Virus record (IMG/VR): IMGVR_UViG_3300042564_001487
Span: 1-35,009 of that record
Reading direction: 5' to 3' (one strand)
Origin: a virus
Length of the DNA stretch: 35,009 nucleotides
The position numbers and the translations under genes were made by a program. Below are positions 3,970 to 33,009 of this stretch, piece by piece; position 1 is the first letter of the stretch; each line of letters begins with the position of its first letter. A model generated the notes under the pieces. That model had not been told where the DNA came from. It worked only from the letters and a program-made list of their open reading frames with translations, and did no database searches.

Positions 3970-3998
3970 ATTATATTAGGAAGTGTATGTGATAGCAA
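3970..3998 (-). promoter_or_regulatory. Putative sigma70 promoter for clpS
   Basis: On the minus strand, TTGCTA (3993-3998) and TATAAT (3970-3975) are separated by 17 bp. The -10 box is perfect and the -35 box matches 4 of 6. The -35 box lies in the last codons of hsp20. The start point would be about 3963. A TAAATA motif (3960-3965) overlaps this region and is a possible alternative late signal. Confidence 0.5.
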
Positions 3999-4434
3999 TA
4001 GTCTTTGGCTTGGCTTCTTCGGGCACTTCACGTCGCAAGTGAACGCTGAGAATACCTAGTTCAAGGTGAGCATTACTAATTTCCACATGATCCGCAAGTT
4101 GGAATTCTCTGCGGAAACTTCTTTCACTAATACCTTTGTGCAAATATTTTGCAGTGGCATCGTCATTCTCCACAGTTTCACGACTGTGCTTGCCTTCAAT
4201 AATCAAGAAGTTTTTGTCCTTGGTCACAGTAAGGTTGTCATGCCCAAAACCGGCCACAGCCACACTGATCATGTACTCGTCGTCATTGATTTGTACAATA
4301 TCGTAGGGCGGGTAGTTGGTTGAGGATTGTTGAGTACTCACACGCATGAGTTCATCAAACATGTTATCGAAACCGATACCAAATTTGGTGAGTGCGGGAA
4401 TGTCGAAACTACGAAGGGTGAGAGTTTTTGTCAT
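3976..4434 (-). CDS. Small heat-shock protein (Hsp20/IbpA family)
   Basis: A 152-aa alpha-crystallin-type chaperone that holds unfolding proteins without ATP. The N-terminal part (about 1-38) has the IbpA-like FGIGFDNMFDEL segment. The alpha-crystallin domain covers about 40-135 (YPPYDIVQ, AVAGF, LIIEGKH, YLHKGISERSFRREFQL), followed by LGILSVHL and a short C-terminal extension. Such genes are known in several T4-like phages, where they are thought to help virion protein folding. A strong AAAGGAG ribosome-binding site precedes the ATG. The leader contains a small imperfect hairpin (4468-4489). The gene sits between bS21 and clpS in what looks like a protein-quality-control block. Confidence 0.93.
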   Translation of the reverse strand: MTKTLTLRSFDIPALTKFGIGFDNMFDELMRVSTQQSSTNYPPYDIVQINDDEYMISVAVAGFGHDNLTVTKDKNFLIIEGKHSRETVENDDATAKYLHKGISERSFRREFQLADHVEISNAHLELGILSVHLRREVPEEAKPKTIAITYTS

Positions 4435-4521: not shown

Positions 4522-4746
4522 TCAATAAAGTTTTTTGGGCAAAGCCTGTTCGGCTAGTTTTTTGCGCCAACGATTTTGCGCCGCTGACTTTTTGCGTTTG
4601 CGTTCTGTAGTGGGTTTTTCGTAAAACTCTTTGGCTCGAACATCATCTAAGATGCCCGATGTTTGAATTTTCTTTTTGAATTTACGTAGAGCTTTGTCTA
4701 CGTTACCATCTGTGACCAGTACTGATCTACCCCTTAGCTTTTCCAT
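4522..4746 (-). CDS. rpsU: Ribosomal protein bS21
   Basis: A 74-aa homologue of bacterial bS21, the small-subunit protein next to the anti-Shine-Dalgarno region of 16S rRNA that is needed for translation initiation. Seen in the sequence: the N-terminal [13 protein letters not shown] block (15-27), SGILDD (30-35), the [13 protein letters not shown] signature (41-53), then a basic [13 protein letters not shown] tail. Length is close to the usual 71 aa. Phage-encoded bS21 is known in marine and huge phages; its inferred role is to bias host ribosomes to phage mRNA. The start codon lies inside the clpX 3' end (20-nt overlap), with an AAAGGAAG ribosome-binding site in clpX, so the two are probably translationally coupled. 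Confidence 0.95.
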
Positions 4747-5944
4747 TTGCTTCCTTTAGTTCTGTAGGGGTATTTACCTGATCTGCATCAATAAACACGC
4801 GGTTTACTCCTTCCCTACGATAACGGGCCAAATAAAACATATGGGGGAGTAACACACGTTCTAGCTCTGAGTGCAAACCCCTAGCACCAGTTTTGTTTAG
4901 AATAGTGCGATCTGCAATCATTTCCAAGGCTTCTGCACTGAATTCTAGTTCTACTTTGTCTTGTTCAAACAACCAAGAGTATTGTGCAATGTAACTGTGT
5001 TTGACATCCAGCAAGATACGGATCAAATCTTCTTTGTTGAGTTCGTTGAGTGCTACCCAGCTAGGGAAACGACCCACAAACTCTGGAATCATACCAAACT
5101 TGATCAAGTCTTCTGGTGTGACTTGGTCTAGGTGTGTTTCTGTGTCGTCTTTTACTTTTGCACTGAAACCAATCGAAGTTCCACGCACACGATTTTTTAC
5201 CACTGCATCAAGACCCACGAACGCACCACCAGCAATAAACAAGATGTTAGTGGTATCAATCTCAATCATGTCACCTGAAGGATGCTTGCGATTTCCTGTG
5301 GGAGTGACTCTGCACTTGGTGCCTTCTACCAGTTTAAGCAAGGCCTGTTGTACACCTTCTCCTGACACATCTCGTGTGATTGAAGCACTTTCACTGCGGC
5401 GACTGATTTTGTCAATTTCGTCAATGAACACAATGCCGCGCTGTGTTTTGGCGATGTCACCGCCCGATGCGGCAAACAATCTAGAGATCAAGCTCTCAAC
5501 GTCGTCGCCTACATAACCTGCTTCAGTAAGACTTGTGGCATCGGCAATCACGAACGGTACATCCAAGTAACGTGCTACACTACGTGCCAACAATGTTTTG
5601 CCCGACCCCGTTGGGCCAAGCATGAGAATGTTACACTTTTCAATCTCAGTATCAGTTCCCGGATTACTAATGCGTTTGTAATGATTTACCACTGCCACGC
5701 TCAGTACCTGTTTGGCACGATCCTGGCCAATCACATACTGATCTAGATGATTTTTTATGTGTTCAGGGTCCATCACAACAGGAGGGCTGACTGTGCCGGC
5801 AAAATTTTCATCTTTCAGCAAAGTTTCACATAGTTCCACACACTCATTGCATATGGCAACACCTTCACCTACAATAAGTTTAGCCACTGCATCTTTGTGT
5901 TTTCCACAAAAACTGCAGGATGTGATTTGATCATTTGATTTCAT
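4727..5944 (-). CDS. clpX: ATP-dependent Clp protease ATP-binding subunit ClpX
   Basis: A complete 405-aa AAA+ unfoldase (E. coli ClpX has 424 aa). It has the N-terminal zinc domain with C10, C13, C32 and C35, Walker A GPTGSGKT (110-117), Walker B FIDEID (173-178), the GYVG pore-1 loop (143-146), the RKH loop (219-221), the IGF loop that docks on ClpP (258-260) and the sensor-2 GARGL (353-357). All key parts are intact, so it should unfold proteins and bind a ClpP, presumably the host's because none is visible here. The start overlaps the upstream membrane-protein stop (ATGA) without a ribosome-binding site, indicating coupling. bS21 starts inside its 3' end. It is probably transcribed from the 7967-7996 promoter. 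Confidence 0.97.
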
Positions 5945-8382: not shown

Positions 8383-9351
8383 TTAGTTCTCCTCTTTCGA
8401 CAGTTCGTCAAATTCTACAACAAGTTTATCAAAGTCTTCTCGAATTTCTAGTTCTTCAGGATCAAAAGAGATGCCTTGCCATTCTTTGATTTTGAGTTCT
8501 TCAGTGTCGCTAACGTCCTCTTGCCAGGAACTAATCCAACGTGTACCGGTCCACTTGGCATGATGTGTATAACCACTTTTGCCTGGTACTCTGATCATGT
8601 ACACGCCTTCACGCACAGGCTTGATCTTCTTGGGAAACCATTCAGTCATTGGATATTCAATATCATCCATGGTGCAATATTTTTGCCAGGTGTTGGAATC
8701 CTTAACCAGGTAGAAACCAAAATCACTACTTTTGCCGTTGGTGTCACCTCCCCAGTTGTCGATCTGTTCGCCATCATATTTGACGTTGGTGATAATGTCG
8801 TTGCCGTCAATCTCGTCATAGCCCATTTCAAGTTTGGCAACGTCAAATGGTTGGGTTAGTGGAAGTTCACCTTCAAAGAAAGTGCCCTTCTCGTTGCTGA
8901 TGCCAAAGAACACTACTGTGCCCACCGGCTTCATACCAATCCAGTATTCCTCGCCACCGCCCCATTCGGGTTCAGGTGGATCACCATCTGCACCCATGCC
9001 TGAGATGTCTTCCAGTCTCTTTTCGTAAACAATTTGATCTTGTTCGTCCATGATTTGAATTGTGCCAGCATTGCGGTCAACCCCGTGTTCATGGCAAATG
9101 TCATCACAGTCATAGTAACTGCCTGGTGAGAACGGCCACATTTCTTCGGGAATGTTGTTTTCCTCTGCATAGTCCGAGTCCCAAGCAAAGTCACTTAGGC
9201 TCAGTCTACGATAGCGAAAGTAATCATAGATCTTGCGATCCACTGTGCCCATGATGTACTCACCACCATAGCCCCACAATTGAATCTTGTAGGTGCGTGG
9301 TGTAAACTTGAGTACTTCAATCAATTTGTTTTGTTCGTCAATTGTGGCCAT
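8383..9351 (-). CDS. Acidic hypothetical phage protein (322 aa)
   Basis: I do not recognise a domain. The 322-aa protein is acidic and rich in Trp, Tyr and Gly, with a Gly/Pro-rich linker around 121-136 separating an N-terminal part (1-115) from a C-terminal part. The N-terminal part has a cluster of Cys, His and Asp (about 75-92) that might bind a metal. The start ATG at 9351 follows a GAGGAC ribosome-binding site located in the end of the 36-aa ORF. Only 1 nt separates its stop from the next start, so it is part of a coupled operon. Confidence 0.78.
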   Translation of the reverse strand: MATIDEQNKLIEVLKFTPRTYKIQLWGYGGEYIMGTVDRKIYDYFRYRRLSLSDFAWDSDYAEENNIPEEMWPFSPGSYYDCDDICHEHGVDRNAGTIQIMDEQDQIVYEKRLEDISGMGADGDPPEPEWGGGEEYWIGMKPVGTVVFFGISNEKGTFFEGELPLTQPFDVAKLEMGYDEIDGNDIITNVKYDGEQIDNWGGDTNGKSSDFGFYLVKDSNTWQKYCTMDDIEYPMTEWFPKKIKPVREGVYMIRVPGKSGYTHHAKWTGTRWISSWQEDVSDTEELKIKEWQGISFDPEELEIREDFDKLVVEFDELSKEEN

Positions 9352-9352
9352 G

Positions 9353-9463
9353 CTAGTCCTCTACTAAAAAATAACCCGAAACTGGGTAGTGTTCTTGCAA
9401 CCATTCCAACAGGCCTGGCTCCCAGGGCAATTGTATTTCAAGATTCCTGGATGAGATGTACAT
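9353..9463 (-). CDS. Small ORF (36 aa) between BI-1 gene and 322-aa gene
   Basis: This ORF encodes 36 residues, starting MYISSRNLEIQLPWEPG and ending FLVED. Its ATG overlaps the stop of the upstream BI-1 gene by one base (TAATG). The end of its own sequence carries the ribosome-binding site for the next gene. It fills the only gap between two coupled genes, which is the usual pattern of real small phage genes. No function can be assigned. Confidence 0.55.
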   Translation of the reverse strand: MYISSRNLEIQLPWEPGLLEWLQEHYPVSGYFLVED

Positions 9464-10158
9464 TAGTCGTCTTTGTTGTTCATAATTCCAAACAACTGGA
9501 GCAAGTGAATAAAGATATTGATAAAGTCCAGGTACAAACTCAGTGCTCCAGACACTTCATCACCATAGGTGCTATCTTCACGTGATACTCTTTCACGAAT
9601 GGTTTGAGTGTCGTAGGCCGTGAGTGCCAAAAACACCAAGATTGCAATTGCGGAGATCACCATCTGCATCACGGTGCTGCCAATAAAGATATTAACTATA
9701 CTGGCAATGCAGATGGCGATCAAAGCGACAAAGGCATACTTGCCTACTGAATCAAGACTTTGTTTGGTAAAATAACCATACCCACTCATGGTGCCAAAAA
9801 GCACAGCCGCACCCATGAAGGCAGTAAAGATCGATCCCATGGTGTAGATCACAAAGATCATTGCAAAGCTCAGACCCATCAAGGCCGCAAAGCCGTGTAG
9901 AGCCGCCATGGCCACCGGAGGTGTTGGGTTACTGGCCAGTACAGGTGCAACCACAAACACTGCCGCAAGTGGTGCAAAGATCACTACCCACTTCATGATG
10001 CCGGTAAAGAAAAACTCAACCAGTTCTGGGTTCATGCCCACAAACATGCTCACAAGCATGCTGGTTAGCACAGCCAGCGCCATATGGCCATATACTCGGC
10101 CCATGGCCTGGTTTACGCCTGCGGCGTCTCGATAACTGTCAACTGTTGTTGCATACAT
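9463..10158 (-). CDS. Bax inhibitor-1 (BI-1/YccA/YbhL) family membrane protein
   Basis: A 231-aa polytopic inner-membrane protein with about seven hydrophobic helices, close to the size of bacterial BI-1 homologues. The C-terminal signature is clear: AYDTQTIRE, then GALSLYLDFINIFIHLLQLFG near residues 196-227. In E. coli the relative YccA binds and inhibits the FtsH protease, and others act as ion leak channels. The role here is inferred from that. The frame extends 10 codons further, but ATG 10158 is preferred because AAGGAG precedes it by 8 nt. The ATG overlaps the upstream stop (TAATG), so translation is coupled. Confidence 0.9.
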   Translation of the reverse strand: MYATTVDSYRDAAGVNQAMGRVYGHMALAVLTSMLVSMFVGMNPELVEFFFTGIMKWVVIFAPLAAVFVVAPVLASNPTPPVAMAALHGFAALMGLSFAMIFVIYTMGSIFTAFMGAAVLFGTMSGYGYFTKQSLDSVGKYAFVALIAICIASIVNIFIGSTVMQMVISAIAILVFLALTAYDTQTIRERVSREDSTYGDEVSGALSLYLDFINIFIHLLQLFGIMNNKDD

Positions 10159-11176: not shown

Positions 11177-11588
11177 TGTGTGCTTTCAGTGGGGTGCCTC
11201 GAAGGCCAGATACCAGTTGGAATTTGTTCCAAGCGTCTTTTACAGTGGGCGAGTTTTCTAGGTCGCTGTCTGATACCACAGTTTCTAACCAGTAGTACGG
11301 CAGGCGTCGGGGGTGAGCACCGAACTTGCGGGGCTGGTGGAACTTGCCTTGATTCCATAATTCAATACTGACATCACGGAAATCTTGTTCCGTGTAATCA
11401 GTATCGCCCCATTCCATATTTGTGTTTAGAAATGAGCCGCCACTATAGCCTGCCCAGATACCCGACCATTGTGCATCATCACGTGGATCAAAGTCTGTGC
11501 GAGCAACAATGACCAGAACATCATTGATGTCTACCTTGCCGTCAACAATGTCACGAACACAACGGCTGTAACTGAGTCCAATTTTCAT
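11169..11588 (-). CDS. Hypothetical phage protein (139 aa)
   Basis: A 139-aa soluble protein with no recognised motif. The N-terminal half resembles a small alpha/beta domain (KIGLSYSRCVRDIV, DVLVIVAR) and Trp/Tyr residues are frequent. The ATG overlaps the DNA ligase stop (ATGA), and AGGAAAT in the ligase end acts as ribosome-binding site. Position in the ligase operon suggests an early or DNA-metabolism role, without direct proof. Confidence 0.72.
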   Translation of the reverse strand: MKIGLSYSRCVRDIVDGKVDINDVLVIVARTDFDPRDDAQWSGIWAGYSGGSFLNTNMEWGDTDYTEQDFRDVSIELWNQGKFHQPRKFGAHPRRLPYYWLETVVSDSDLENSPTVKDAWNKFQLVSGLRGTPLKAHNE

Positions 11589-12958
11589 AATTTATTTCCT
11601 GCATCAAAATCACGGAAGCGCAAAAAGCGCGGAAATCTCAGGGAGTATGTTCCGTCTTGGTTTTGTGTGACTGCGTCCGCTTGGACTTCAACCAAGTGAC
11701 CAAGCAAGTTATCCCTTGCGGCCCAATACTCATCACGAAGAGCATCACTAAAGCCGCTACCAACATTAACGCGAATTCTACGGTCATTGTCTTCTCCTTC
11801 ACAAATTATAGCACCAAGTCGATTTTCATTGCGACCTGTTCCTTGCTCAAAACCCACAATATTGAGATCAACACTAATTGTAGGCTTCCATTTCATCCAA
11901 AAGTCTGAACGTTTGCACTCATAAGGTGCATCCATGCTCTTGATCATAATGCCTTCGAAACCTTCTGCCACTGATGCTTCAGCGAACCGTTGCATGATAT
12001 CATGACCTTCGGCTGTGTCCAAGTTCACTTCTAGCCCATTCATAATACGCAGGCAGGGTGTTTCAAGCAGACGCTCCTTGGCACTATCAATCCATTCAAT
12101 GCGTTTGTACTGTTGTATGTTACAATGCCCTTCTTGGAAACTATCCAACGGAATGATATCAAAAATGTGATAAACCATACCATCAGTTCGGGCATCACTT
12201 TTGCGGTGTGCTTGTTTCATCAGCTTCTGGAAGCTCTCGCCCACAATCTCGCCATCTAGTACAAAACGCCCACCGGTACCACGACCATATTGGAAGTGTT
12301 TGCGAGCATCTTCTACAGCATCTGCAATCTGCGGAAAGTTTTCAAACTCTTTGCCATTACGGCTGAACAAGGTAACATTACTGCCATCAACCACTGCCAA
12401 CACACGCACACCATCCAGCTTGACTTCCAGACGTTTGATGCCTTTTAGTTTCTTGGGTTGGTCTGTGGAGTCTTGTGCCAGCTGGCAAGTAAACACAGGA
12501 ATCTTGTATTCGGTCTTGCCCAGCACTTTGTTCAAGGTCTTTTCTGAGATTCCGCATCGTAGATCTTTAATCATCACACGCCGAGCCAAGTTGTTCCACT
12601 CATCTGAGTCAAACTCTTGGCTAAGAGATTCAACACTGTCACGGGCACGATTGCCTGTGATGTATCGTGTGCGCAGGGCTTCCAACAAGGCCCAAAATTT
12701 TGTCCAAGGGTTAGGCCTACCAGTCAGGCCCTCAGTCTCAGGCACCTGACGGATGTTAAATGTGTAGAAAGGATTGTAAGCCTGGTAGCAATTAAAGAGG
12801 AAACATTGTGCATCGGCACTGCCCAGTTTGGCGGCCATCAATGCTTTTTCAATTGTTTTTTCTTTGTGTATGCGACTGTCCGAACTTTCTAGATCACGGA
12901 TCCAACCTGCCGCCACTATGCTGTCAAACCTTTCGTTTGAGAAGTCAGTTTCATTCAT
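11585..12958 (-). CDS. ATP-dependent DNA ligase (T4 gp30-like)
   Basis: Seals nicks in DNA through a covalent lysine-AMP intermediate, needed for phage replication and recombination. The nucleotidyltransferase motif I is EVKLDG with K180 as the adenylated lysine. Motif III is VLDGEIVG (about 233-240), motif IV FEGIMIKS (about 338-345) and motif V WMKWKP (about 361-366). An OB domain follows. The first 170 residues match the helical N-terminal domain of T4-type ligases. At 457 aa it is close to the 487 aa of T4 gp30. A TAAATA motif directly touches the ATG but is probably chance. Confidence 0.93.
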   Translation of the reverse strand: MNETDFSNERFDSIVAAGWIRDLESSDSRIHKEKTIEKALMAAKLGSADAQCFLFNCYQAYNPFYTFNIRQVPETEGLTGRPNPWTKFWALLEALRTRYITGNRARDSVESLSQEFDSDEWNNLARRVMIKDLRCGISEKTLNKVLGKTEYKIPVFTCQLAQDSTDQPKKLKGIKRLEVKLDGVRVLAVVDGSNVTLFSRNGKEFENFPQIADAVEDARKHFQYGRGTGGRFVLDGEIVGESFQKLMKQAHRKSDARTDGMVYHIFDIIPLDSFQEGHCNIQQYKRIEWIDSAKERLLETPCLRIMNGLEVNLDTAEGHDIMQRFAEASVAEGFEGIMIKSMDAPYECKRSDFWMKWKPTISVDLNIVGFEQGTGRNENRLGAIICEGEDNDRRIRVNVGSGFSDALRDEYWAARDNLLGHLVEVQADAVTQNQDGTYSLRFPRFLRFRDFDAGNKL

Positions 12959-13765: not shown

Positions 13766-13795
13766 CTTGGTCTCCTGTTAAGTTTCTGTACAAGT

Positions 13796-13824
13796 ATTAT
13801 AACAAATTGGGAATATTCGGTCAA
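13796..13824 (-). promoter_or_regulatory. Sigma70 promoter (TTGACC-17-TATAAT) for the ligase/BI-1 operon
   Basis: Minus-strand TTGACC (13819-13824) and a perfect TATAAT (13796-13801) are 17 bp apart. The -35 box overlaps the stop codon of the 33-aa peptide gene. It shares the GGTTGACCGA context with the promoter at 13953-13981. Confidence 0.8.
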
Positions 13825-13922
13825 CCACGCAACCGCTTGACCAACAACTGATTTAGAGTTGGCTTGAGTCCCAGTCGTTTGCGGAACAGTTCTCCCAGGG
13901 TTGGCTTTTTGTTTTTTGTCAT
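13821..13922 (-). CDS. Small basic peptide with internal duplication (33 aa)
   Basis: A 33-residue ORF with an AAGGAAAAG ribosome-binding site and its own sigma70 promoter. The peptide contains the same 13-14-residue unit twice: KPTLGELFRKRLG (6-18) and KPTLNQLLVKRLRG (20-33). It is strongly cationic, and each unit could form an amphipathic helix. Duplication at protein level, a good ribosome-binding site and a dedicated promoter all support a real gene despite the length. An upstream in-frame ATG would add 9 Lys-rich residues. Function unknown; a nucleic-acid, RNA-polymerase or membrane-binding peptide is possible. Confidence 0.6.
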   Translation of the reverse strand: MTKNKKPTLGELFRKRLGLKPTLNQLLVKRLRG

Positions 13923-13952
13923 CTTCTTTTCCTTTTTTGTTTTCATGTTCTA

Positions 13953-13981
13953 ATTATAGCAAAAGAGCAATTATCGGTCAA
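13953..13981 (-). promoter_or_regulatory. Sigma70 promoter (TTGACC-17-TATAAT) for the 33-aa peptide
   Basis: Minus-strand TTGACC (13976-13981) and TATAAT (13953-13958) with a 17-bp spacer. It starts directly after the porin terminator and precedes the 33-aa gene by about 30 nt. Confidence 0.8.
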
Positions 13982-13984
13982 CCA

Positions 13985-14015
13985 TAAAAAAAGCCCTACA
14001 CGCAGAAGGGCTTTT
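13985..14015 (-). terminator. Rho-independent terminator after the porin gene
   Basis: The stem AAAAGCCCT/AGGGCTTTT (13989-13997 with 14007-14015) has a 9-nt loop and is followed on the minus strand by a run of seven U residues (13985-13991). It lies 42 nt after the porin stop and closes the porin transcription unit. Confidence 0.9.
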
Positions 14016-14057
14016 GTAGTACTTGAGTATTACTTTTTGATCAGTAGTACTTTGGTA

Positions 14058-15155
14058 TTAGAACGTGTGGCGTATACCAACTGCGGTGCGCTTTGTTACA
14101 CCAGCAGCGGCTGTGGCACCTGCTGTGTTAGTGTCAGCATCACGAGTATCAAGACGTGCATACAAGGTGGTTCTTTTGCTTAGGTCATGATTCACACCGT
14201 ACCCAAGAATTTTCTTGTCTACATTGGCTGTGCTCTTTTCGTTGCTGGAACCAGTTGAAATCATGAAGCTGGTAGCACCGACGGTGTACTTGGCACCAAA
14301 CATCTGTCCAACCTGGTCAATGGCGGTGGCAGTGTTTTGTTTTTCTGTCCAACGAGCACCATACACAGTTGCGGCACCAATCTGGTAGTTGGCCGACAAC
14401 AGGCTAAGAGTGTTGTTGGTACCGGCTTCTAAGGCCTGTGAACCAGGGGTAATAAATGATGCTGTGGTGGTGGCCAAAGTGCCTGATTGTTCAATACGTT
14501 GAGAGGCATACTGCACACTCAAAGGACCATTGGCATATTTTACACCATAGTCAACCACACTCTGAGCATTGACGCTGGCACTGGGTGGCACATACAAATA
14601 AGAACCACTAAAACCTGCTACTGCAGGAGATTCATAACGAATGGCTCCATTGAAACGTGTGGGTGCAGATTGTGCTGTGTGAGTTGCTGTGGCACTGTAA
14701 CGAGTAAAGATGTTACCGTTTGATCCATAACCTGAACCAATAGCAGTCCCGAGTGCTGAGCCGTTGAGCCATGTTTCCAAGATGTTTGAGTTCACACGAC
14801 CAAGTTTCACAGTGCCCCAATTGGCTTCTGTACCGATAAAGGCTTCTTGACCAACACCCACAGTGCCTGCTGTGGTTGAGTTGTATGAGGTGCCTTCAAC
14901 ACCAGCACCATTAATAAAATCAGGTGTGAGTTGCAGTTTGAAATTGGCACGTAGGCCGCTGCCCAAATCCTCAGTGCCTCCGATAGTAAGCACTGTGGTA
15001 GATGAATTGTTGGCCGCAAGGCCTTTGGTATTGACACCAGTGGCTGCATTGGTGAACAACAGGCCGGTGTCAACCAAGCCAGTGATGTTGACAGCACTTT
15101 GAGCAAACACAGAGGTAGCCGCAAGTGCAATCATGATTGCGAAGATTTTCTTCAT
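14058..15155 (-). CDS. Gram-negative outer-membrane porin (Burkholderiales type)
   Basis: A 365-aa general porin forming a beta-barrel trimer in the outer membrane. The signal peptide is clear: MKKI, a hydrophobic core, cleavage after VFA (residue 18). The mature protein starts with the usual SAVNITGLVDTGL strand, has alternating amphipathic strands with GTEDLGSGLRANFKLQ and GTVKLGR blocks, and ends in VGIRHTF, the terminal Phe needed by the BAM machinery. It is full length and undamaged. The ribosome-binding site AAAAGGAAAA and a sigma70 promoter (15198-15226) precede it and a terminator follows, so it is a one-gene unit. Porins are rare in phages; lambdoid phage PA-2 is the known case, where the porin gives superinfection exclusion. 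Host origin is likely. Confidence 0.93.
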   Translation of the reverse strand: MKKIFAIMIALAATSVFAQSAVNITGLVDTGLLFTNAATGVNTKGLAANNSSTTVLTIGGTEDLGSGLRANFKLQLTPDFINGAGVEGTSYNSTTAGTVGVGQEAFIGTEANWGTVKLGRVNSNILETWLNGSALGTAIGSGYGSNGNIFTRYSATATHTAQSAPTRFNGAIRYESPAVAGFSGSYLYVPPSASVNAQSVVDYGVKYANGPLSVQYASQRIEQSGTLATTTASFITPGSQALEAGTNNTLSLLSANYQIGAATVYGARWTEKQNTATAIDQVGQMFGAKYTVGATSFMISTGSSNEKSTANVDKKILGYGVNHDLSKRTTLYARLDTRDADTNTAGATAAAGVTKRTAVGIRHTF

Positions 15156-15197
15156 TAGTTTTTCCTTTTAAAAGTAGAATGACATAAGTCAATCTGT

Positions 15198-15226
15198 ATT
15201 ATATAGCAGTGTTTGTACTAAGTCAA
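15198..15226 (-). promoter_or_regulatory. Sigma70 promoter (TTGACT-17-TATAAT) for the porin
   Basis: Minus-strand TTGACT (15221-15226) and a perfect TATAAT (15198-15203) are 17 bp apart, about 43 nt before the porin ATG. The 98-nt gap 15156-15253 holds nothing else I can identify. Confidence 0.85.
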
Positions 15227-15253
15227 CACAAAATCAACCTCAAAGTAGCCGTT

Positions 15254-17320
15254 TTATGTGTTAACTGGGAGTATTACCGGAATTGGTGCCACCACTGCAT
15301 CACTAGGTACCTGAGTGTTATTGTACAAGCCTCTGGCATTCAACCGTTCCTGATTGCGGCCTTCTCTCATGGCACCAATGATGGCCTGGCCGCCTAGTGT
15401 TGTGGTGTCTGCTAGGTTTTCCAAAAACTCAGCAGCATCACCTTGGGCAGTGAGACGACCATAGTAGGCCAAATTTTGCACAAAACTCTTGGTGCTGTTT
15501 GCATCGCCTGCTTGCAACAAGAAATAATCAACTCCGGCTTGGCTGGTATACTTGGCGCTTAAATTCATCAAGTTGGCCATGTAGGTCCAGGCTGTGTTCA
15601 TTGTCGCCACTTGAGGCGGATGCACCGAATTAATACTTGCTATTTCTGCATTGGCATTAGCAATGAGTGTTATCATAGCGGCATCATTTGCCGAACTCAA
15701 CATGTCAATGTAGATTTGAGATAAATCATCTAGGCCAGTACCAAGCCCGTCAATAATATCAGCGACGTCAGTAAGCCGTGCGGCAAAGTCATTGCTGTCT
15801 AGTGCCAAGCCCAGCACATCATAGGTGGTGAGTACTCCGCATGGCCCTGTGCCTGTGGCCACTTCGGTTGCAAAAAATGCAGCCACGCTGGCCGGTACTG
15901 GTGTGGTCTGTTGTTGAATCAGCGGCAGATCAGCCATGGTACTGAGACCGCCCAGTGAGGTTTCTGACCAGTAGTTGCTGTTTGTAATGTCCACTCCTGG
16001 CGGAACTACAAAATTGCCCGGAGTACAGCCTGGTGATTTGGCTCGATAAAATGTGGGCACAGGCGAACCCACGCTGACCACATCATTGGCTAGATATTCT
16101 TGCGTTGGATCCCACTCTTGGTCAACAGAGCCAAGTATTGTGTTGGCCAATTCGGGCAGTGTAGTTGTGCCAATGTTGTTGATTTGTTTCAAGGCCACTT
16201 CAATGGCCTTGTTGGCCACTGCATCAGCAGGTGGAATAATTTTGCCCAGTTCGTCACAACCCGATGCTGTGGGTAGATATGAGTTGACAATGGGTGTGAC
16301 ACTGGAATTCACACTACCGTCGTTGCCAAATATAGGCACCGCGCCCGCAGGTGTGGGAGTCAGCATGGTGGGATAACTCAACGGAAACACCTTGGTAGGA
16401 TCCAACAATTGATCCAGGCTGGTTATATTGGGAGTGGTCACGTCCAAGATTGACAAAATTTGATCTAGGTCGTCGCCCGATACTGATGACAATGCTGTGT
16501 AGGCAAGTTTTTGTATGCGGTCAAATTCGTTTTGACTCAGTCCATTGGGTCGATTGATTCCCACACGATTGTCAGTCACAATGTTTTCAATGTCGCTGTC
16601 TGTGAGTCCCACCGCATTCATGGCCAACTGAACAGCAGGCACAGCTTGTCTGTTGACTCCAGCCAGGCGAGATATCTGTTGTACAAGTCCAGCAGGAGTG
16701 CCGTAAAGATCAAGGTTTTGAAGATTCACAAGATTACCTTGCTTGGCCAAGTCCACACCAAATTTTTCAAGGTCGCTGTTTGCACCACTGATTCCTGCAG
16801 TGGTCAAGGAATCCATGTTGGTAAAGGTTGGTCCAAGAAATTGATTGGCATTCACTGCTGAATTGATGTATTCATTGGTGCTGGCAATGTATCCTTGCAC
16901 AGCCACAAATCCTTGGCTGAATCGGCCATAGTCCCCGTTGCCCAGATAAGCCGCACAGGTTTGCTCAATCAAGTTGGAAAATCCCGATGGATCAATGGTT
17001 GAGCCGTCCACGGCACCAAGATAATTGATCAAGTATTCTCTGTTGAGATAAGTGTAGGTACCCACTGGACTGGCAGGTATGCTGTTGCCCAAGGCTGGAC
17101 ACACAGTACTGCCAATGCTCAACAAACTGGTCAAGGTTGATTCGGTGGCAAATGACTGAGATTTATAAAAATTAACTGCGGCAATAAAATTGCCAATCAC
17201 TGTGGTGGCATTGAATGCGGCAATGGCAGTTTGCAATGCCGACGGAAATCCTTTTAATCCAGTGTTGTTCAACATGGATGCCGCAACGGTCAATTGCAGT
17301 GGTGTTAGTACGCTAGGCAT
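15254..17320 (-). CDS. Large putative virion (tail/baseplate) protein, 688 aa
   Basis: A 688-aa protein with no signal peptide, rich in Ala, Asn, Thr and Leu and low in charge, typical of virion components. Its ATG overlaps the PAAR gene stop by one base, so it is probably part of the tail spike or baseplate tip. Residues about 403-451 (WDPTQEYLANDVV ... YRAKS ... NYW) resemble a carbohydrate-binding module of the CBM5/12 type, with the spaced Trp/Tyr/Trp pattern. The N-terminal 400 residues look helical. It is the last gene of the RNR-to-baseplate series; the porin promoter follows it. The exact role is not established. Confidence 0.75.
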   Translation of the reverse strand: MPSVLTPLQLTVAASMLNNTGLKGFPSALQTAIAAFNATTVIGNFIAAVNFYKSQSFATESTLTSLLSIGSTVCPALGNSIPASPVGTYTYLNREYLINYLGAVDGSTIDPSGFSNLIEQTCAAYLGNGDYGRFSQGFVAVQGYIASTNEYINSAVNANQFLGPTFTNMDSLTTAGISGANSDLEKFGVDLAKQGNLVNLQNLDLYGTPAGLVQQISRLAGVNRQAVPAVQLAMNAVGLTDSDIENIVTDNRVGINRPNGLSQNEFDRIQKLAYTALSSVSGDDLDQILSILDVTTPNITSLDQLLDPTKVFPLSYPTMLTPTPAGAVPIFGNDGSVNSSVTPIVNSYLPTASGCDELGKIIPPADAVANKAIEVALKQINNIGTTTLPELANTILGSVDQEWDPTQEYLANDVVSVGSPVPTFYRAKSPGCTPGNFVVPPGVDITNSNYWSETSLGGLSTMADLPLIQQQTTPVPASVAAFFATEVATGTGPCGVLTTYDVLGLALDSNDFAARLTDVADIIDGLGTGLDDLSQIYIDMLSSANDAAMITLIANANAEIASINSVHPPQVATMNTAWTYMANLMNLSAKYTSQAGVDYFLLQAGDANSTKSFVQNLAYYGRLTAQGDAAEFLENLADTTTLGGQAIIGAMREGRNQERLNARGLYNNTQVPSDAVVAPIPVILPVNT

Positions 17321-18778: not shown

Positions 18779-19243
18779 TTATTTTCCTTCTTGTGATTTA
18801 TCGTAGGTCTTGGCAAAGATATCTGTCTTAACAACACCATAGTCGCTAGGGCCGTGCTTGACAATATAGTCATTGCCAGCAGTGTAAAATAATTTTTGCG
18901 GACCACTACCCCAATCCACAGTGACAAAGCCATCATGATCGGCTAGTTTTGCAACCTTTGGAATTTTCTTTGGTTGGCAACGACCATCACCTAGATCGTC
19001 TTTGAGGCTGTTGAATTTGGCGGGACTCAGCACATACTGTTCGTCGTTGGGACCTGTCATAATGTAATCACCAGGTTGGTAGGGCACAGGGTCTGGATTT
19101 TCAAGATGAGTCAGCTCTCCAGGTTTTTGTGCAATCTCATATTTTTCAATTTTATCTGGATTTTTAAAAGTGGCGAACCCATCAGCGAACCAAGCGTCGG
19201 TGATGCCCTGTGCATTTTCTATTATGTTGATAAAATTTCTCAT
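18779..19243 (-). CDS. Hypothetical protein with two PGDYI-type repeats (154 aa)
   Basis: Function unknown. Two related units are visible: PGDYIMTGPNDEQYVL ... F (about 56-77) and GNDYIVKHGPSDYGVV ... F (about 122-144). Each is a short beta unit with a G-D/N-D-YI core and an aspartate/proline turn, as seen in many phage and bacterial proteins of unknown role. The N-terminus MRNFINIIENAQG resembles the capsid-targeting peptide of T4 internal proteins. The start overlaps the nrdB stop (ATGA). Confidence 0.72.
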   Translation of the reverse strand: MRNFINIIENAQGITDAWFADGFATFKNPDKIEKYEIAQKPGELTHLENPDPVPYQPGDYIMTGPNDEQYVLSPAKFNSLKDDLGDGRCQPKKIPKVAKLADHDGFVTVDWGSGPQKLFYTAGNDYIVKHGPSDYGVVKTDIFAKTYDKSQEGK

Positions 19244-20340
19244 AGATCCGGTAACTCCTCGTAATCAATCGAATCACTCATGACTCCAATCACATAGTTA
19301 GTCGATTCGTTTTCCTGGAGAGCAGTTTGTTTCTTGCTGGTGTCCACGTGCTTGGTAAACCAAGGAATAGGTGTACTACGTGGTGCCGGCTCGGTGTACT
19401 TGACTCCAATTTCTTTGAGAGCTGCTGCGGCTGTAAAATCCACAAAGTCCTTGAGAATGTTTGCATTAAGACCAATCACTGGTCCTTTGTTAAACAAGTA
19501 ATCAGCCCAGGCTTTTTCTTCACGGATCACATCCAGGTACATTTGGTATACTTCGCCTTCGCACTCGGCCTTGACAGCAGCAAAGCGTGGGTCTTCTTTG
19601 ACCACCTGATTGATCAACCAACCTGTCCACTCTTTGTGTAGCATTTCGTCTTGCAAGATCAACTGAATAATGTTGCCATTGCCAATGAAGATACGATTCT
19701 CTACCATGGCCAAGCTGGTAGCAAATGATACCATGAATCGGAATGCTTCCAGGGCATAACTTGCGTTCAGTGCCATCCAAATTGCTTTGATATGTTTTTC
19801 TTCGTCAATCTTTTCGCCGGTTTCTACAACACAATTAATCAAATGTAGCTTGTCATAGTAGTTGCCAACACTAGACGCCATGTCCACAATCTCTTGTGTG
19901 TCATGAATAGTGTTGAACACATCCTTGGGCACATTGTAAATGTTGCGAATGATGTGACTGTAGCTACGTGAATGAATGTTGGTTTCAAAGAATGTCCAGT
20001 TGTAGACCAAGGCTTCCAGTTCGGGAATACTCACAACAGGTGTAAAGATTTGACTGGGACCACGTCCTTGCAAACTGTCTAGTGCTGTTTGGCGTAACAA
20101 GTTTGATGTAAAGATATGCTTGACTGTGTCTGACGCATCTTTGAAGTCTTGTGCGTCTTTGGTCAAAGAGATTTCTTCTGGAACCCAAAAGAAGCCACGT
20201 GCTTCTTGCTCGTACTTGACCAGTTTGTTGTACTTGACTTCTTCAAATCGTTGTACTGTTACAGGACCTGCTGGATCTAGGAACATCTTGCGACTAAGAT
20301 AGTCTGTTTTTGTTTTTAAATTGTATTGTGCTCTACTCAT
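19240..20340 (-). CDS. nrdB: Class Ia ribonucleotide reductase, beta subunit (NrdB)
   Basis: A 366-aa ferritin-like protein that holds the di-iron/tyrosyl radical cofactor for dNTP synthesis. Seen: D62 (LTKDAQDF), E119 and H123 with radical Tyr127 in HSRSYSH, the second pair ALEAFRF and QDEMLH, and a C-terminal acidic tail ending EELPDL for docking on NrdA. Compared with E. coli and T4 NrdB the first iron motif reads E-T-N-I-H rather than E-T-I-H, one residue longer. The start follows a possible sigma70 promoter (20400-20428) and the 63-aa gene. Confidence 0.95.
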   Translation of the reverse strand: MSRAQYNLKTKTDYLSRKMFLDPAGPVTVQRFEEVKYNKLVKYEQEARGFFWVPEEISLTKDAQDFKDASDTVKHIFTSNLLRQTALDSLQGRGPSQIFTPVVSIPELEALVYNWTFFETNIHSRSYSHIIRNIYNVPKDVFNTIHDTQEIVDMASSVGNYYDKLHLINCVVETGEKIDEEKHIKAIWMALNASYALEAFRFMVSFATSLAMVENRIFIGNGNIIQLILQDEMLHKEWTGWLINQVVKEDPRFAAVKAECEGEVYQMYLDVIREEKAWADYLFNKGPVIGLNANILKDFVDFTAAAALKEIGVKYTEPAPRSTPIPWFTKHVDTSKKQTALQENESTNYVIGVMSDSIDYEELPDL

Positions 20341-20347
20341 TGTGTAA

Positions 20348-20539
20348 TTACCAGTGTCTAATTGTGTTGGCTATAATAAAACCACAGGTTACAACATGTA
20401 TTATAACCCAAAACGTTTTGAAAAACAAGGCCATTCGGGCTTCTCGTAGTGTCAGTATAGGCACATCCGGGCGGTCATGATCACTCTCGCCCATTACATG
20501 CCCAGTGGCCCGGGCCCAGATCTTTTCTATGCTGTTCAT
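20348..20539 (-). CDS. Small membrane protein between nrdA and nrdB (63 aa)
   Basis: A 63-aa protein with a soluble N-terminus (MNSIEKIWARATGHV) and one membrane helix at about 38-58 (FFKTFWVIIHVVTCGFIIANT). I recall similar small proteins beside nrd genes of T4-like phages. The start overlaps the nrdA stop by 4 nt (ATGA). Function unknown. Confidence 0.75.
   Translation of the reverse strand: MNSIEKIWARATGHVMGESDHDRPDVPILTLREARMALFFKTFWVIIHVVTCGFIIANTIRHW
20400..20428 (-). promoter_or_regulatory. Possible sigma70 promoter before nrdB
   Basis: Minus-strand TTGTTT (20423-20428) and TATAAT (20400-20405) are 17 bp apart, inside the 63-aa gene and about 60 nt before the nrdB start. The spacer holds the 12-bp palindrome CAAAACGTTTTG. 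The -35 box matches only 3 of 6. Confidence 0.35.
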
Positions 20540-22854
20540 AACTTGCAGGCTTCGCAGTCTTCGCCCTCGAGATCAAAGTCGATGATTTCAAGAGGGGCCG
20601 CTTCGGCAGTTTGTTTTGATCCGGCTTTGTTGATCAGGCTGTAGTAGAATGTTTTCAGGCCCCAGTAGTGTGCCTGCATCAAGTTCTTGGCAATCAATGT
20701 TGTAGGGACTTTGCGATCTGGGAAATGTGCTGGATTGTAGAACGTATTTGTTGAGATTGACTGATCCACATAGGCCGCCAACACCGCCGCTGTTTTCAAA
20801 TAACCATCACAGTCTTTTTGTGCCCACATCTGTTGATACTTGTTTTTCAATTTGTGGTACTCGGGCACAACCTGTGTAAGGCTTCCTGCTTTAGATTCTT
20901 TAACTGAAATCAAGCTCATGGGCATTTCAATGCCGTTGGTTGAGTTGATAACAACACTACTGGACTCCACAGGAGCAATGGCCATCAGTGTGGCATTGCG
21001 TACTCCGTAACTACGCATTTCAGCACGTAGGCCTTCCCAGTTCAGTTCAGGCGTAAAGTCCGCGAGTTCATTTACCCCGGCGCTACGTCTCTCCCAAGGA
21101 AAGATACCTTTACCGTACCAGGTGCGGTCAGAATCTTTGCAACGGCCTCTTTCCTTAGCAAGTTCAACTGTTGCTTCGGTAAGGTAGAAAGCCTGATGTT
21201 CCATCCACGACTTGACTTCGGCCAAAGAGTCCTTGTTACCATATTGGAGTCCGCGCTTGGCATGCCAGTAAGCCAAGTTAGTAATACCGATACCAAGCGG
21301 CTGGATTTCGTCATTTGATAACTGCGATTGGATTGACAGGAAGTCTTGGTAGTCAAGAATATTACACAAGGATCTCTGCAGAATTCTACAAGCACGACGC
21401 ATGTCTTCAGGATTCCGGAATGCACCCCAGTTAATACTTCCCAGCGTACAGAGGGCGATTCGCCCATCAGCGTCATCCAATCTTTTAAATGGTCGAGTAG
21501 GTAGGAGAATTTCACAGCAAAGGTTACTCTGGTAAATGGTATGGTATTCAGTATCAAACGGACCTTGATTCTGAACGTTGTCAATGAACACTAGATAGAT
21601 GCGGCCAGTGTCAGTGCGCTCTTTGAGTATGCCTGACTTGAACACTTCTTCTGCACTCATGACCTTGGTACGTAGGTCTCGGCGCTTTTCATATTCCACA
21701 TACAGTTTTTCAAAGCGTTCGGTGTTGGCATAGAATGCTTCGTACAGTTCAGGTACTTCGTTGGGATCAAAGAATGTTATTTGTTCTTTGTTTTTAAATC
21801 GTCTCCAGAAGAAAGCACTAAGCACAACCCCATAATCCATATGACGGACTCGGGTTTCTTCGGTTCCTTGGTTGTTCTTAAGAACAATAAGATCATCAAA
21901 CTGAAGATGCCAAATAGGATAGAATACAGTAGCACTTGCATTGCGGATACCTCCTTGTGAGCATGAGCGTAAATCTCCAAACCACTTCTTTAAAAATGGT
22001 ATCATACCGGTGTGCATGATTTCGCCACCACGTATGGGTGAGCCTAAGGGGCGCAAGCGACCAATCTCCAAACCAATGCCAGCACGTTTGCTGGCATACT
22101 TGGCCATCATTTCGCCACTAGCAAAAATGGAGTCAAGATCATCATCACTGCGAATGAGTACACAACTACTGAACTGCTTAGTGGGAGTGCCAAGCCCAGC
22201 AAGAACAGGAGTTGCGAGAGTAAATAGACCGTCAGAAGCTGCATTGTAGTACTCCTTGATATAACGCATACGAGCTGTGTTGGGTTCTTCTCGGTGAAAC
22301 ACCGTGGCAGCCGCAATCATGTAACGAACCTGTGGTGTTTCATAAATTTCTTTTGTTGAGCGATTACGCACAAGATATTTTTCAATCAGTTGTTCCACAG
22401 CCGCATATGAATACTGCTCGTCTTTCACATGGTCGATCATGTCTTCCATGCGATTCCAGTCTTCTTCTGAATACCATTCCAAGAGTTCAGGAGTGTAGAG
22501 ACCAGTAGCCACGTTGCGCTTGACAATTTCATACAGGTGTGGAGGATCGTATGAACCGTATACATCTTTACGCAACATTGATAGTCGTTGCTTACCTGCC
22601 ACATACTGATAGTTGGTATGCCCAACGTCAGGATTTGATTCTACGTCAATCAGGTCCACTATGGCTCTCAGTGTGATACCGTCAATTTCTTTGGTTGTGA
22701 TGCCATCATAGAAATGCAACTGGGCTTTGATCTCAATCATTGATTGGCTCACATCTGCGATGCCTGCACAAACCTTGGCTATTTGCGCTTGCCATTTTTC
22801 CAACGCCAACGGCTCGCGAGTTCCGTCACGTTTTTGTACTGTTATTTGCTTCAT
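20536..22854 (-). CDS. nrdA: Class Ia ribonucleotide reductase, alpha subunit (NrdA)
   Basis: The catalytic subunit reducing ribonucleoside diphosphates, 772 aa (E. coli 761). An N-terminal ATP cone is present (1-95, starting QITVQKRDGT), giving allosteric control. Active-site pieces: C231 and C469 as the redox pair, N444-x-C446-x-E448 with the thiyl cysteine, Y737-Y738 in the radical path, and the C-terminal C767-x-x-C770 tail cysteines. Nothing essential is missing. It is followed by the 63-aa gene and nrdB with overlaps, so all are co-transcribed. It is preceded by the 141-aa gene with a 2-nt gap and a TAGGTAAC ribosome-binding region. Confidence 0.97.
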   Translation of the reverse strand: MKQITVQKRDGTREPLALEKWQAQIAKVCAGIADVSQSMIEIKAQLHFYDGITTKEIDGITLRAIVDLIDVESNPDVGHTNYQYVAGKQRLSMLRKDVYGSYDPPHLYEIVKRNVATGLYTPELLEWYSEEDWNRMEDMIDHVKDEQYSYAAVEQLIEKYLVRNRSTKEIYETPQVRYMIAAATVFHREEPNTARMRYIKEYYNAASDGLFTLATPVLAGLGTPTKQFSSCVLIRSDDDLDSIFASGEMMAKYASKRAGIGLEIGRLRPLGSPIRGGEIMHTGMIPFLKKWFGDLRSCSQGGIRNASATVFYPIWHLQFDDLIVLKNNQGTEETRVRHMDYGVVLSAFFWRRFKNKEQITFFDPNEVPELYEAFYANTERFEKLYVEYEKRRDLRTKVMSAEEVFKSGILKERTDTGRIYLVFIDNVQNQGPFDTEYHTIYQSNLCCEILLPTRPFKRLDDADGRIALCTLGSINWGAFRNPEDMRRACRILQRSLCNILDYQDFLSIQSQLSNDEIQPLGIGITNLAYWHAKRGLQYGNKDSLAEVKSWMEHQAFYLTEATVELAKERGRCKDSDRTWYGKGIFPWERRSAGVNELADFTPELNWEGLRAEMRSYGVRNATLMAIAPVESSSVVINSTNGIEMPMSLISVKESKAGSLTQVVPEYHKLKNKYQQMWAQKDCDGYLKTAAVLAAYVDQSISTNTFYNPAHFPDRKVPTTLIAKNLMQAHYWGLKTFYYSLINKAGSKQTAEAAPLEIIDFDLEGEDCEACKL

Positions 22855-22856
22855 TG

Positions 22857-23282
22857 TTACCTAATTTGTTGTTTTAATTGCTCTTGCGTAATGCTGTGTC
22901 GGGAGTTGAAACGTCCTAGAGTGATATTTAACATCTGCTCCGAGTCCCAATTCAGTATATATTTCTTTTCATGCACCAGGACTAAATTGTCGCTATCTAC
23001 CTCTACCAAAACGGCATCCTGCAGATCTGGCCGATCCAGCATAGTTATAGTATACAGTATTCCCAGGCCGCGAGCAAGAGGACAATAGAGATCGTCGCTC
23101 AATAATTGCCAGGGATCAGGCCAAACGGCTCGATCGTCCCAGTGCAAATGATATGCTCGCCAGGGAGTTTGAAACCACCATGAGTTGATGGCGTTGAGTG
23201 CTGTTTCCGCATCAGCGGTGGAGGCTTGTCGACGGAGTTGTGTCCAACTCTCAAGCCTTTCGGCAAAGGTTTTAGGCCACAT
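22857..23282 (-). CDS. Hypothetical phage protein (141 aa)
   Basis: A 141-aa protein rich in Trp and Asp (INSWWFQTPW, LHWDDRAVWPDPWQLL) with a later LGILYTITML helix and a VHEKKYILNWD strand pair. The order of Cys (C67 region), His and Asp around these blocks is vaguely like transglutaminase/papain folds, but I would not assign that. The start overlaps the tail spike stop by one base (TAATG), so it may assist that protein. Function unknown. Confidence 0.72.
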   Translation of the reverse strand: MWPKTFAERLESWTQLRRQASTADAETALNAINSWWFQTPWRAYHLHWDDRAVWPDPWQLLSDDLYCPLARGLGILYTITMLDRPDLQDAVLVEVDSDNLVLVHEKKYILNWDSEQMLNITLGRFNSRHSITQEQLKQQIR

Positions 23283-25069
23283 TAACTAGGAATAGTAGGA
23301 GAACCGAGACTAGTGATAGAATAATTAATTGCACCATCTGACCCGGTGCTGGTTGCGGTATAACTTACCAGTACATTAGCGCCATCGGCTGCGGCAGTTA
23401 GTGTCACGCCAGTTACACCATTTTCATAGTAGTCATCTGTGTACACAAAGCCTGTGCCTGTTGTACTCTGACCTTTGACTGCGGTCAATGTGCCTGTTCT
23501 ACGAAAGTCGCTTCGATTGATTGTGTAATCCATCTTAAAACCACTGTAGTATGTTCCTGCTACGTATACCAAATTGGCTCCGGCATTGTCATTAATAATG
23601 TCGTTGATACCAGCAACACGAGTGTAGGTGCCCACACTCAACTGATTGGCCAAGGTTAGATCTACTACATTATCTTGATATAGTGTGATGTTGTTGACAT
23701 TCATGCCCTGGGCGATATTGTTTTTGTCGTTTAGTGCTATGCGAGGATGCAAGGCTGTGCTGTATTGAGTTGTGCGTTCAAACATATCCCCAACACTGAC
23801 ATTGTTGGTTGCGTCTAGGTCAATTATGGCAGTCACTGGATTGGTCTGACCATTGAAACTGTTTCCAACTTCATAGAACGTGTTGTAGGCAGTGGCATTG
23901 AGACTGCAATTCACAATGATGATACCTTCAGCATAGATATTATCAAATGTGTTTTGTACTATGCGCACACCAGTTGGTCCAACATAGCCCACACCCGGAG
24001 AGATGGTTCCAAGATATACACCTTGGAACAAGGTATCAAATCTACAGTTGCTGACAGTTACGCCTTCCACTGCTTCGTCTGTGTTAACTCCCCATGCCAT
24101 CTTGGTAAAAATACAATTGTTCCAAACAATATTGGTACAAACATAACTGCCTTGGTTAGCAAAACTCACACCAGCTGTGGCAAGAGTGGCGGTGGTAAGT
24201 GTGGCCGCAGTTCCATTGCCTTCAAACGCCACACAGTCAAACACACAATCCACTGCACCCTGTACCAGCGCACCGCTAGTGGGCACATTGGTCTTAAACT
24301 TGATGCTGGACATTTCTACATGACCTGGCGGCAATGCACCACCGGTACCAATGTTTGCACCGGTCTGTTGAAGACTATCTGTGGTTCTAAACATATAATC
24401 GGGCAGTGTTTCAACACCCCAATAAGTGGTATTACCAATAGCTATGCCAATTGGCACCGCGGCAATGCTTCTATAGTATAGACCGCTGTTTTCTACCAGC
24501 ACACCCGAAGCATAGGCGATTGTAGAAGTCCAGGGTTGAACATTGAAACTGATGATTGTGCTGTCAGATCCTTCGCCGTAGAGTTTACAGTAAGGTGGAA
24601 TCAGCAGTGTGTCTGTGATAATGTATGTGCCGGCAGGAAAGAAAATACTGCGGCGGATACTGGGATTGATGTCTTGACAAAAAATCTGATCCAATGCACG
24701 ATTGATGTCAGCCGTGACATCTGTGATGCCATCTCCAGTGGCACCGAAGTCTGTAATCACAGCATAACTGTCCAGTCTGCTTTGTAGACTTTGACTGACT
24801 GGTGTACCTGCTGTGGCACCAGTTTGGACTGTGTAACCGGCCGCTTCACCTTTATAGGTATACTCAGTGGCATAGTTCAAGATGTCAGAAAATTCAGTAA
24901 GAACTTCTGTGTTACCAATAATAGGAGCGCCATCTGCCAGGGTACCATTACCGATAAAAAGTTGACGTGTGTCAGTTGCCCAGCCCAGTTCTGCGCCGGC
25001 TAATGGTTCGGGTAGATCGTTAAATAAACCCTTGCGTTGTGTGATTCGTGATATTTGTACAATTGCCAC
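23282..25069 (-). CDS. Tail spike/fibre with pectate-lyase-like beta-helix
   Basis: A 595-aa receptor-binding or glycan-degrading virion protein. The N-terminus (about 18-50, AGAELGWATDTRQLFIGNG) is the module found at the start of many phage tail fibres. At 107 the DFGATGDGITD motif begins a right-handed beta-helix of the Pectate_lyase_3 type, with FFPAGTYIITDTLLIP near 143-158 and YGEGSDSTII after it. Many short N/G/T-rich rungs follow up to about 470. The start is GTG at 25069 with AAAGGA 8 nt before it. A TAAATA motif at 25094-25099 may be a late promoter. Enzymatic activity cannot be read from the sequence. Confidence 0.87.
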   Translation of the reverse strand: MAIVQISRITQRKGLFNDLPEPLAGAELGWATDTRQLFIGNGTLADGAPIIGNTEVLTEFSDILNYATEYTYKGEAAGYTVQTGATAGTPVSQSLQSRLDSYAVITDFGATGDGITDVTADINRALDQIFCQDINPSIRRSIFFPAGTYIITDTLLIPPYCKLYGEGSDSTIISFNVQPWTSTIAYASGVLVENSGLYYRSIAAVPIGIAIGNTTYWGVETLPDYMFRTTDSLQQTGANIGTGGALPPGHVEMSSIKFKTNVPTSGALVQGAVDCVFDCVAFEGNGTAATLTTATLATAGVSFANQGSYVCTNIVWNNCIFTKMAWGVNTDEAVEGVTVSNCRFDTLFQGVYLGTISPGVGYVGPTGVRIVQNTFDNIYAEGIIIVNCSLNATAYNTFYEVGNSFNGQTNPVTAIIDLDATNNVSVGDMFERTTQYSTALHPRIALNDKNNIAQGMNVNNITLYQDNVVDLTLANQLSVGTYTRVAGINDIINDNAGANLVYVAGTYYSGFKMDYTINRSDFRRTGTLTAVKGQSTTGTGFVYTDDYYENGVTGVTLTAAADGANVLVSYTATSTGSDGAINYSITSLGSPTIPS

Positions 25070-25845: not shown

Positions 25846-26169
25846 CTATATTCGAAAACTTTCTCCGCAGCCGCAACGATCACGTTCGTTGGGATTTGAG
25901 AATTCAAAGCCTTCGTTGAGGCCTTGGCGCACATAATCTACAGTCATGTTGTGTAGATACACATCATCTTTTTGAGTTACTAGAACTACAAAATCAGGTT
26001 GTGCATAATTGATAACATACTGTTCAGGTGTGTATTCTCGAACGTATTCCAGCACATAAGCAAGACCTGAGCAACCTGTAGTTTTAACTCCAAGCCGAAT
26101 GCCAGCATAGCCCTTGGCTGTGACTAGTTTTTGGATTTTGTTTCGTGCTGTGTCAGTGAACGAGATCAT
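25846..26169 (-). CDS. iscA: A-type iron-sulfur carrier (IscA/HesB family)
   Basis: A 107-aa A-type carrier that passes Fe-S clusters to target proteins. The three ligand cysteines are present: C33 in TGCSGLAY and C99/C101 in RCGCGESF at the C-terminus. Length is typical. HesB/IscA-like genes are known in several T4-like phages. It overlaps iscU by 17 nt, and lacks a clear ribosome-binding site, so it is probably translated by coupling. It ends next to the nuclease promoter. Confidence 0.94.
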   Translation of the reverse strand: MISFTDTARNKIQKLVTAKGYAGIRLGVKTTGCSGLAYVLEYVREYTPEQYVINYAQPDFVVLVTQKDDVYLHNMTVDYVRQGLNEGFEFSNPNERDRCGCGESFRI

Positions 26170-32940: not shown

Positions 32941-32959
32941 TCGATCTAGGCCTTTGGAT

Positions 32960-32965
32960 TATTTA
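32960..32965 (-). promoter_or_regulatory. TAAATA motif, possible late promoter (minus strand)
   Basis: CACTAAATAATCC on the minus strand, 19 nt before the 82-aa gene, in the short divergent region 32941-33009. It is paired with an opposite copy at 32984-32989. Confidence 0.45.
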
Positions 32966-32983
32966 GTGCTTTTTAGATTCTAA

Positions 32984-32989: not shown

Positions 32990-33009
32990 TCTATTATACA
33001 GGAATCTCC

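Follow-up and report, generated by a model that had tools for sequence, protein, structure and literature searches.

The porin gene carried by a 35,009 nt stretch of viral DNA (positions 1 to 35,009 of IMG/VR record IMGVR_UViG_3300042564_001487, hereafter the window) is one of several unrelated outer membrane barrel genes found at the same position in related phages, and it also occurs at another position in a different phage lineage. Both observations go beyond the first-pass annotation, which had described a complete porin gene forming its own transcription unit in a T4-like phage. Judging from gene order and sequence comparisons, this position is very probably a dedicated slot at which outer membrane barrels are exchanged. 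The features of the locus, in the direction of transcription, are as follows.

23282..25069, minus strand: 595-aa pectate-lyase-like (tailspike-like) gene, examined for linkage with the cargo
19240..22854, minus strand: nrdB and nrdA (class Ia RNR) with a 63-aa gene between them; upstream synteny markers
15254..17320, minus strand: 688-aa gene, the upstream boundary of the slot, with PAAR and phrog_527 genes next to it
13766..15253, minus strand: exchangeable slot between the 688-aa and 94-aa genes, defined by synteny across about 60 classified contigs
15198..15226, minus strand: putative promoter of the porin unit, TTGACT-17-TATAAT, from a sequence scan; the 92 nt upstream region is conserved in relatives
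15176..15195, minus strand: predicted 5' leader hairpin AGAUUGACUUAUGUCAUUCU, directly after the -10 box
15161..15169, minus strand: Shine-Dalgarno sequence AAAAGGAAA, kept across slot occupants
14058..15155, minus strand: 365-aa outer membrane porin (Porin_4), a complete ORF with a signal peptide at about residues 1-18 and a terminal Phe
about 13985..14012, minus strand: predicted intrinsic terminator AAAAGCCCT..AGGGCTTTTTTT, a stem-loop of about -12 kcal/mol with a T7 tail
13953..13981, minus strand: putative promoter of the next small gene, TTGACC-17-TATAAT, from a sequence scan
13821..13946, minus strand: 41-aa small ORF, also downstream of the slot in loci L139 and L143
13481..13765, minus strand: 94-aa gene (s94), the downstream boundary of the slot, 99% identical in L139, which has a different barrel
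11585..12958, minus strand: DNA ligase, the downstream synteny marker

The porin was confirmed as complete: the ORF is intact, the N terminus of the protein reads as the signal peptide MKKIFAIMIALAATSVFA and its C terminus as ...GIRHTF. The only Pfam family reported for it, Porin_4 (PF13609), matches residues 8-342 with an E value of 1.5e-32 and a score of 114 bits (cut-off 27). As modelled by AlphaFold2 from 54 sequences (pLDDT 79, pTM 0.81), the protein has 17 strand segments around it and a short helix at residues 124-131 in the L3 position, giving a predicted 16-strand barrel with an inward loop L3. The top PDB matches of this model are Omp32 (Foldseek E value 6e-22) and then other 16-strand porins, in agreement with the best PDB match by sequence, 1e54 (E value 1.7e-9). 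Omp32, the closest solved structure, is anion-selective and has also been solved with malate. Its eyelet arginine, R38, is a common feature of the Porin_4 family rather than a criterion of membership: 36 of the 44 cellular homologues have it, and all of the 365-aa phage alleles have Val in its place; a glycine invariant in all 44 of these homologues is likewise replaced, by Thr or Asn, in the phage porin. On account of these two substitutions, Omp32-like anion selectivity cannot be assumed for the phage protein. Ratios of dN/dS between the 365-aa alleles lie between 0.04 and 0.14, indicating that the intact gene is under purifying selection. Neither the porin nor the small barrels described below have a family in PHROGs.

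The description of the gene as a self-contained unit also held, in that promoter, 5' hairpin and terminator are all conserved in relatives. By itself the promoter match is weak, with seven sites found by the scan against 3.3 ± 1.7 in shuffled sequences, and other exact TTGAC-N18-TATAAT sites lie on the minus strand at 33021, 25845, 13981 and 13824; conservation in relatives extends beyond this match to the whole leader of the porin gene. The terminator stem-loop is absent from the scanner's list, and equivalent stem-loops are found 3' of the cargo gene both in relatives and in the transposed copy of the porin, L011. Leaders of barrel genes are unusually folded: among 58 non-redundant examples the mean folding z was -1.36, with 64% below -1, compared with a mean of -0.13, and 20% below -1, for 137 leaders of other genes in the same phages (Mann-Whitney p = 2e-9, which overstates the independence of these interrelated leaders). 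The sequences of the hairpins vary between leaders and it is their position and form that persist. The leaders of ompA provide a precedent for the stabilisation of mRNA by 5' structure, and by analogy the leader hairpin probably stabilises the barrel mRNA. We infer that the porin is expressed early, because its promoter resembles the host sigma70 consensus.

A scan with the 688-aa gene retrieved 80 related loci, some of them on near-duplicate contigs, with the gene order nrdA-nrdB-...-PAAR-688-aa gene-[slot]-94-aa gene-118-aa gene-ligase. Between the 688-aa and 94-aa genes lies the 365-aa porin in 11 contigs, the window included, a 149-aa barrel in six, a 181-aa barrel in three and a 182-aa barrel in two; ten have Porin_4 porins of 293-298 aa under other promoters, some relatives have other small genes, and about 15 contigs have no barrel in a slot of about 210 bp or less (about 120 bp in L179). 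One and the same promoter and leader precede the 365-, 149-, 181- and 182-aa barrels, with 81-86% mean identity over 92 nt against a baseline of about 50% for shuffled sequence, and the signal peptide MKKIFAI... is common to the 365-, 181- and 182-aa classes. The mature proteins of these four classes, by contrast, have no blastp match to one another below an E value of 0.05, other than a weak similarity between the 149- and 182-aa barrels (E value 0.002). The nearest relatives of the window by NrdB, L137 and L139 (RNR 96-97%), carry the 149-aa barrel in place of the porin, with the tailspike-like gene 95%, the ligase 97% and s94 99% identical to those of the window. Cargo types are scattered over the NrdB tree, several forks of which are weak. 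The upstream boundary gene had been called a virion gene: its position beside the PAAR and phrog_527 genes agrees with this, whereas the 688-aa protein itself matches no Pfam or PHROG family, leaving a structural role plausible but unproven.

Porins are normally bacterial genes, and the cellular homologues of this one are betaproteobacterial, which would fit a chimera or bacterial DNA wrongly assigned to a phage. Such an artefact is nevertheless extremely improbable, as it would require the same assembly error in all of ten contigs and as phage genes flank the porin on both sides. The window is a single IMG/VR record. A 77,318 bp contig from another metagenome (IMGVR_UViG_3300044655_001596) contains the whole of it at 99.75-99.96% identity and spans the porin (99.95%) with both flanks, and nine further contigs (L003-L010 and L012) have the porin at 91-100% amino acid identity in the same site between the same neighbours. 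With the same junctions in ten independent contigs, a chimera was rejected; so was misbinned bacterial DNA, there being no bacterial homologue of more than 36% identity among the matches listed, and the relatives of the region are phages rather than a bacterial chromosome. The description of the phage as T4-like is reasonable, though not proven: the window encodes a DnaB-like helicase and a class Ia RNR, and the related contigs G010, G445, G450 and G454 encode the Gp23 capsid protein, but none was found in the window's own 77 kb contig. No integrase or lysogeny genes were recognised in the window or the 77 kb contig, both of which are fragments; the genes found include RNR, the DnaB-like helicase and a primase.

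The porin has also been transferred between phages. Locus L011, in the 105,163 bp phage contig G009, has the porin at 92% amino acid identity in a different site, under a different promoter and with an equivalent terminator; its new leader is again predicted to form a hairpin. The other proteins common to this phage and that of the window are at most 79% identical, and therefore the porin has moved between phage lineages. Including this copy, alleles of the 365-aa porin are found on 12 contigs, and about 24 more viral contigs have other Porin_4 genes, nearly all of them sharing genes with the window's phage group.

A Burkholderiales-type host had been proposed from the porin. The cellular homologues among the matches listed are indeed betaproteobacterial, mostly Burkholderiales, but at 36% identity or less; the host is probably a member of this order on the evidence of these homologues, without this being proven. 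A profile search of genome contigs with an alignment of the phage porins alone found no relative, and in a sample of 399 genomes from one order the closest porin, at 36%, was in a 1.7 Mb genome. A closer cellular donor may exist. Among the matches listed, the closest cellular porin (36%; L133, G100) is on a short contig, between integrase-like genes.

The smaller occupants of the slot appear to be membrane barrels as well. The 181-aa protein is predicted to form a ten-strand barrel (pLDDT 87), the structural matches of which are membrane barrels, and the 149-aa protein has a YfaZ match above the Pfam cut-off together with a sub-threshold match to Phage_OMP (PF24653). Both families are common among viral contigs, which reach 383 kb; one small-barrel family has about 60 loci and another about 35. 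The members of the 181-aa family at L259, L263, L264 and L266 have another signal peptide, MKK(I/L)AIATLV..., which looks as though it had been shuffled independently of the barrel.

What the slot is for is less certain. Our leading suggestion, held tentatively at slightly under an even chance, is that it remodels the surface of the infected cell to competitive advantage, for instance by superinfection exclusion, with the porin as the present occupant of an expression site dedicated to outer membrane beta-barrels. Expression would be driven by the host-type sigma70 promoter, 5' stem-loop, strong Shine-Dalgarno sequence and signal peptide, with the terminator insulating the unit; the host would then export the barrel through Sec and insert it, folded, into the outer membrane with its BAM machinery. 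In this way the phage would alter the cell surface, and lineages would swap the barrel that they use. Once added, it might mask, dilute or displace surface receptors and so keep later phages out, a benefit modelled on the Lc porin of phage PA-2, which has been proposed to change host porins and exclude superinfection. This surface role is favoured over transport alone because the slot is shared with barrels that have no obvious large pore, and it is supported by the presence or absence of a barrel among relatives. In its most specific and still more tentative form, the suggestion would be that a widespread group of large freshwater phages maintains an expression site with a constant promoter, hairpin, Shine-Dalgarno sequence and mostly constant signal peptide, at which unrelated barrels are exchanged as a surface-variation module against competing phages, a logic comparable to that of antigen expression sites. 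Within the 365-aa class nothing points to an arms race at the cell surface: 15% of sites are variable in predicted loops against 11% in strands, and diversifying selection on the loops was thus not seen. No specific support was obtained for masking of the receptor that the phage itself uses, because the cargo is independent of the tailspike-like gene: the window and L139 have the same tailspike-like gene with different barrels, and the window and L146/L150 the same porin with different tailspike-like genes (60%). In the search output, matches to the 595-aa tailspike-like gene in many relatives cross one in-frame TGA or TAA. Periplasmic solute-binding genes occur in many phages of the group, and would also fit transport.

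Nutrient uptake is accordingly a rival explanation, if a less likely one: as an auxiliary metabolic gene, the porin would open the outer membrane wider to limiting nutrients, such as phosphate or organic acids, in cooperation with phage periplasmic binding proteins and host inner membrane transporters. The window's own phage encodes PstS on the 77 kb contig (G001:41517-42539, equivalent to L024:1517-2539), about 17 kb from the porin and above the NCBIfam equivalog cut-off (NF008171, 428 bits against 339), and a 225 kb relative has a homologue at 52%; as a general partner PstS was rejected, being present in only two of 23 contigs. With the same porin, G009 encodes TctC, DctP, an acyl-CoA ligase, BKACE and a CoA-transferase, a set suggestive of the uptake and breakdown of organic acids. 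An SDR and a zinc-type dehydrogenase are also found with this set (coordinates 23281-24249, 96158-97129, 32591-33943, 69214-72379 and 50028-51017). G010 has TctC near its porin, in L235 a TctC-like gene below the Pfam cut-off comes 9 bp after the porin, and the anion selectivity of Omp32 and its structure with malate point the same way. Against uptake, the slot also holds barrels of 149-182 aa that are unlikely to be wide pores, the altered eyelet weakens the comparison with Omp32, and contigs with small barrels have TctC about as often as contigs with porins do, so that a uniquely porin-linked TctC was not seen; above-cut-off matches to this family were found in 12 of 42 further contigs. The huge phage contig G445 (337 kb, locus L243) encodes Gp23 and a porin, and matches the TctC family in five separate places. 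Published precedents for viral nutrient uptake include an OmpL gene next to amtB (PMC8115048) and SusC in a megaphage (PMC9723777), and pstS is induced during cyanophage infection under P limitation (PMC6359870).

A further possibility, which we regard as improbable, is envelope upkeep: in a long infection, after host shut-off, a barrel supplied by the phage would keep the outer membrane intact or occupy BAM, and its identity would matter little. This would account for the exchange of unrelated barrels behind a single promoter and leader, and other upkeep genes (ClpX, ClpP, IscU/IscA and superoxide dismutase) are found on the same phage, but it explains neither the phages that have no barrel nor the strong purifying selection on the porin. 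Of these genes, ClpX and IscA and IscU, together with an Hsp20-like protein recognised by eye, lie in the window (4727-5944, 3976-4434 and 25846-26536), and two ClpP-like proteases and an Fe/Mn superoxide dismutase in the 77 kb contig (L024:7108-7683 and 9273-9899; L025:12998-13558).

Phage porins have so far been familiar from lambdoid prophages, as isolated curiosities; in these large, apparently lytic phages of freshwater, barrels are a cargo that recurs and is exchanged. Thanks to the leader that the barrels have in common, it can be tested if lytic phages rebuild the surface of the host that they infect, and if the purpose is rival exclusion, feeding or envelope upkeep, with the unrelated barrels in one slot as natural controls. 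The analogy with PA-2 drawn in the first-pass annotation is sound, in that the lc gene is present in the phage collection (J02580.1) and 42 INPHARED records, PA-2 among them, match OmpC. Like the PA-2 Lc and NmpC/OmpD-type lambdoid porins, the window gene encodes a complete porin of the trimeric type and, as predicted from its promoter and terminator, is an independent transcription unit. However, Lc is an OmpC-like Porin_1 protein of a temperate lambdoid phage of enterobacteria, whereas the window porin belongs to Porin_4, is carried by a large phage in which no lysogeny genes were identified and, unlike Lc, is one of several interchangeable barrels. The Omp32 porin of Comamonas (Delftia) acidovorans (1e54, 2fgq) has the same domain over its full length, the window porin being about 24-30% identical to this and other betaproteobacterial Porin_4 proteins.

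That no porin had been described in such phages proved true of isolates, as a tblastn search of the INPHARED phages with the window porin gave no match, PA-2 included, and nor did searches with the 149-, 181-, 298- and 688-aa proteins. It is less true of uncultured phages. The marine OmpL gene, which adjoins glnK-amtB on viral contigs and has been interpreted as metabolic, is likewise a porin gene of an uncultured phage, though it differs from that of the window in its linkage to ammonium transport, its Bacteroidetes origin and the lack of any described exchangeable slot (PMC8115048). BFVD contains entries named 'OmpC Outer membrane protein (Porin)' from uncultured Caudovirales phages (A0A6J5L4P1 and others), and these, with Phage_OMP (PF24653), mean that phage-encoded outer membrane barrels like those of the slot had already been deposited or modelled; they are database entries only, the best structural match among them being about 20% identical, and have no function or slot described. 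Searches of open-access papers found nothing direct on phage-encoded porins in this type of phage, and the exchangeable slot appears to be undescribed in them.

The small barrels may be shortened porins, on the evidence of sequence comparison. The C-terminal half of the Porin_4 profile aligns, just below the cut-off, with a relative of the 149-aa barrel at L318:4001-4447.
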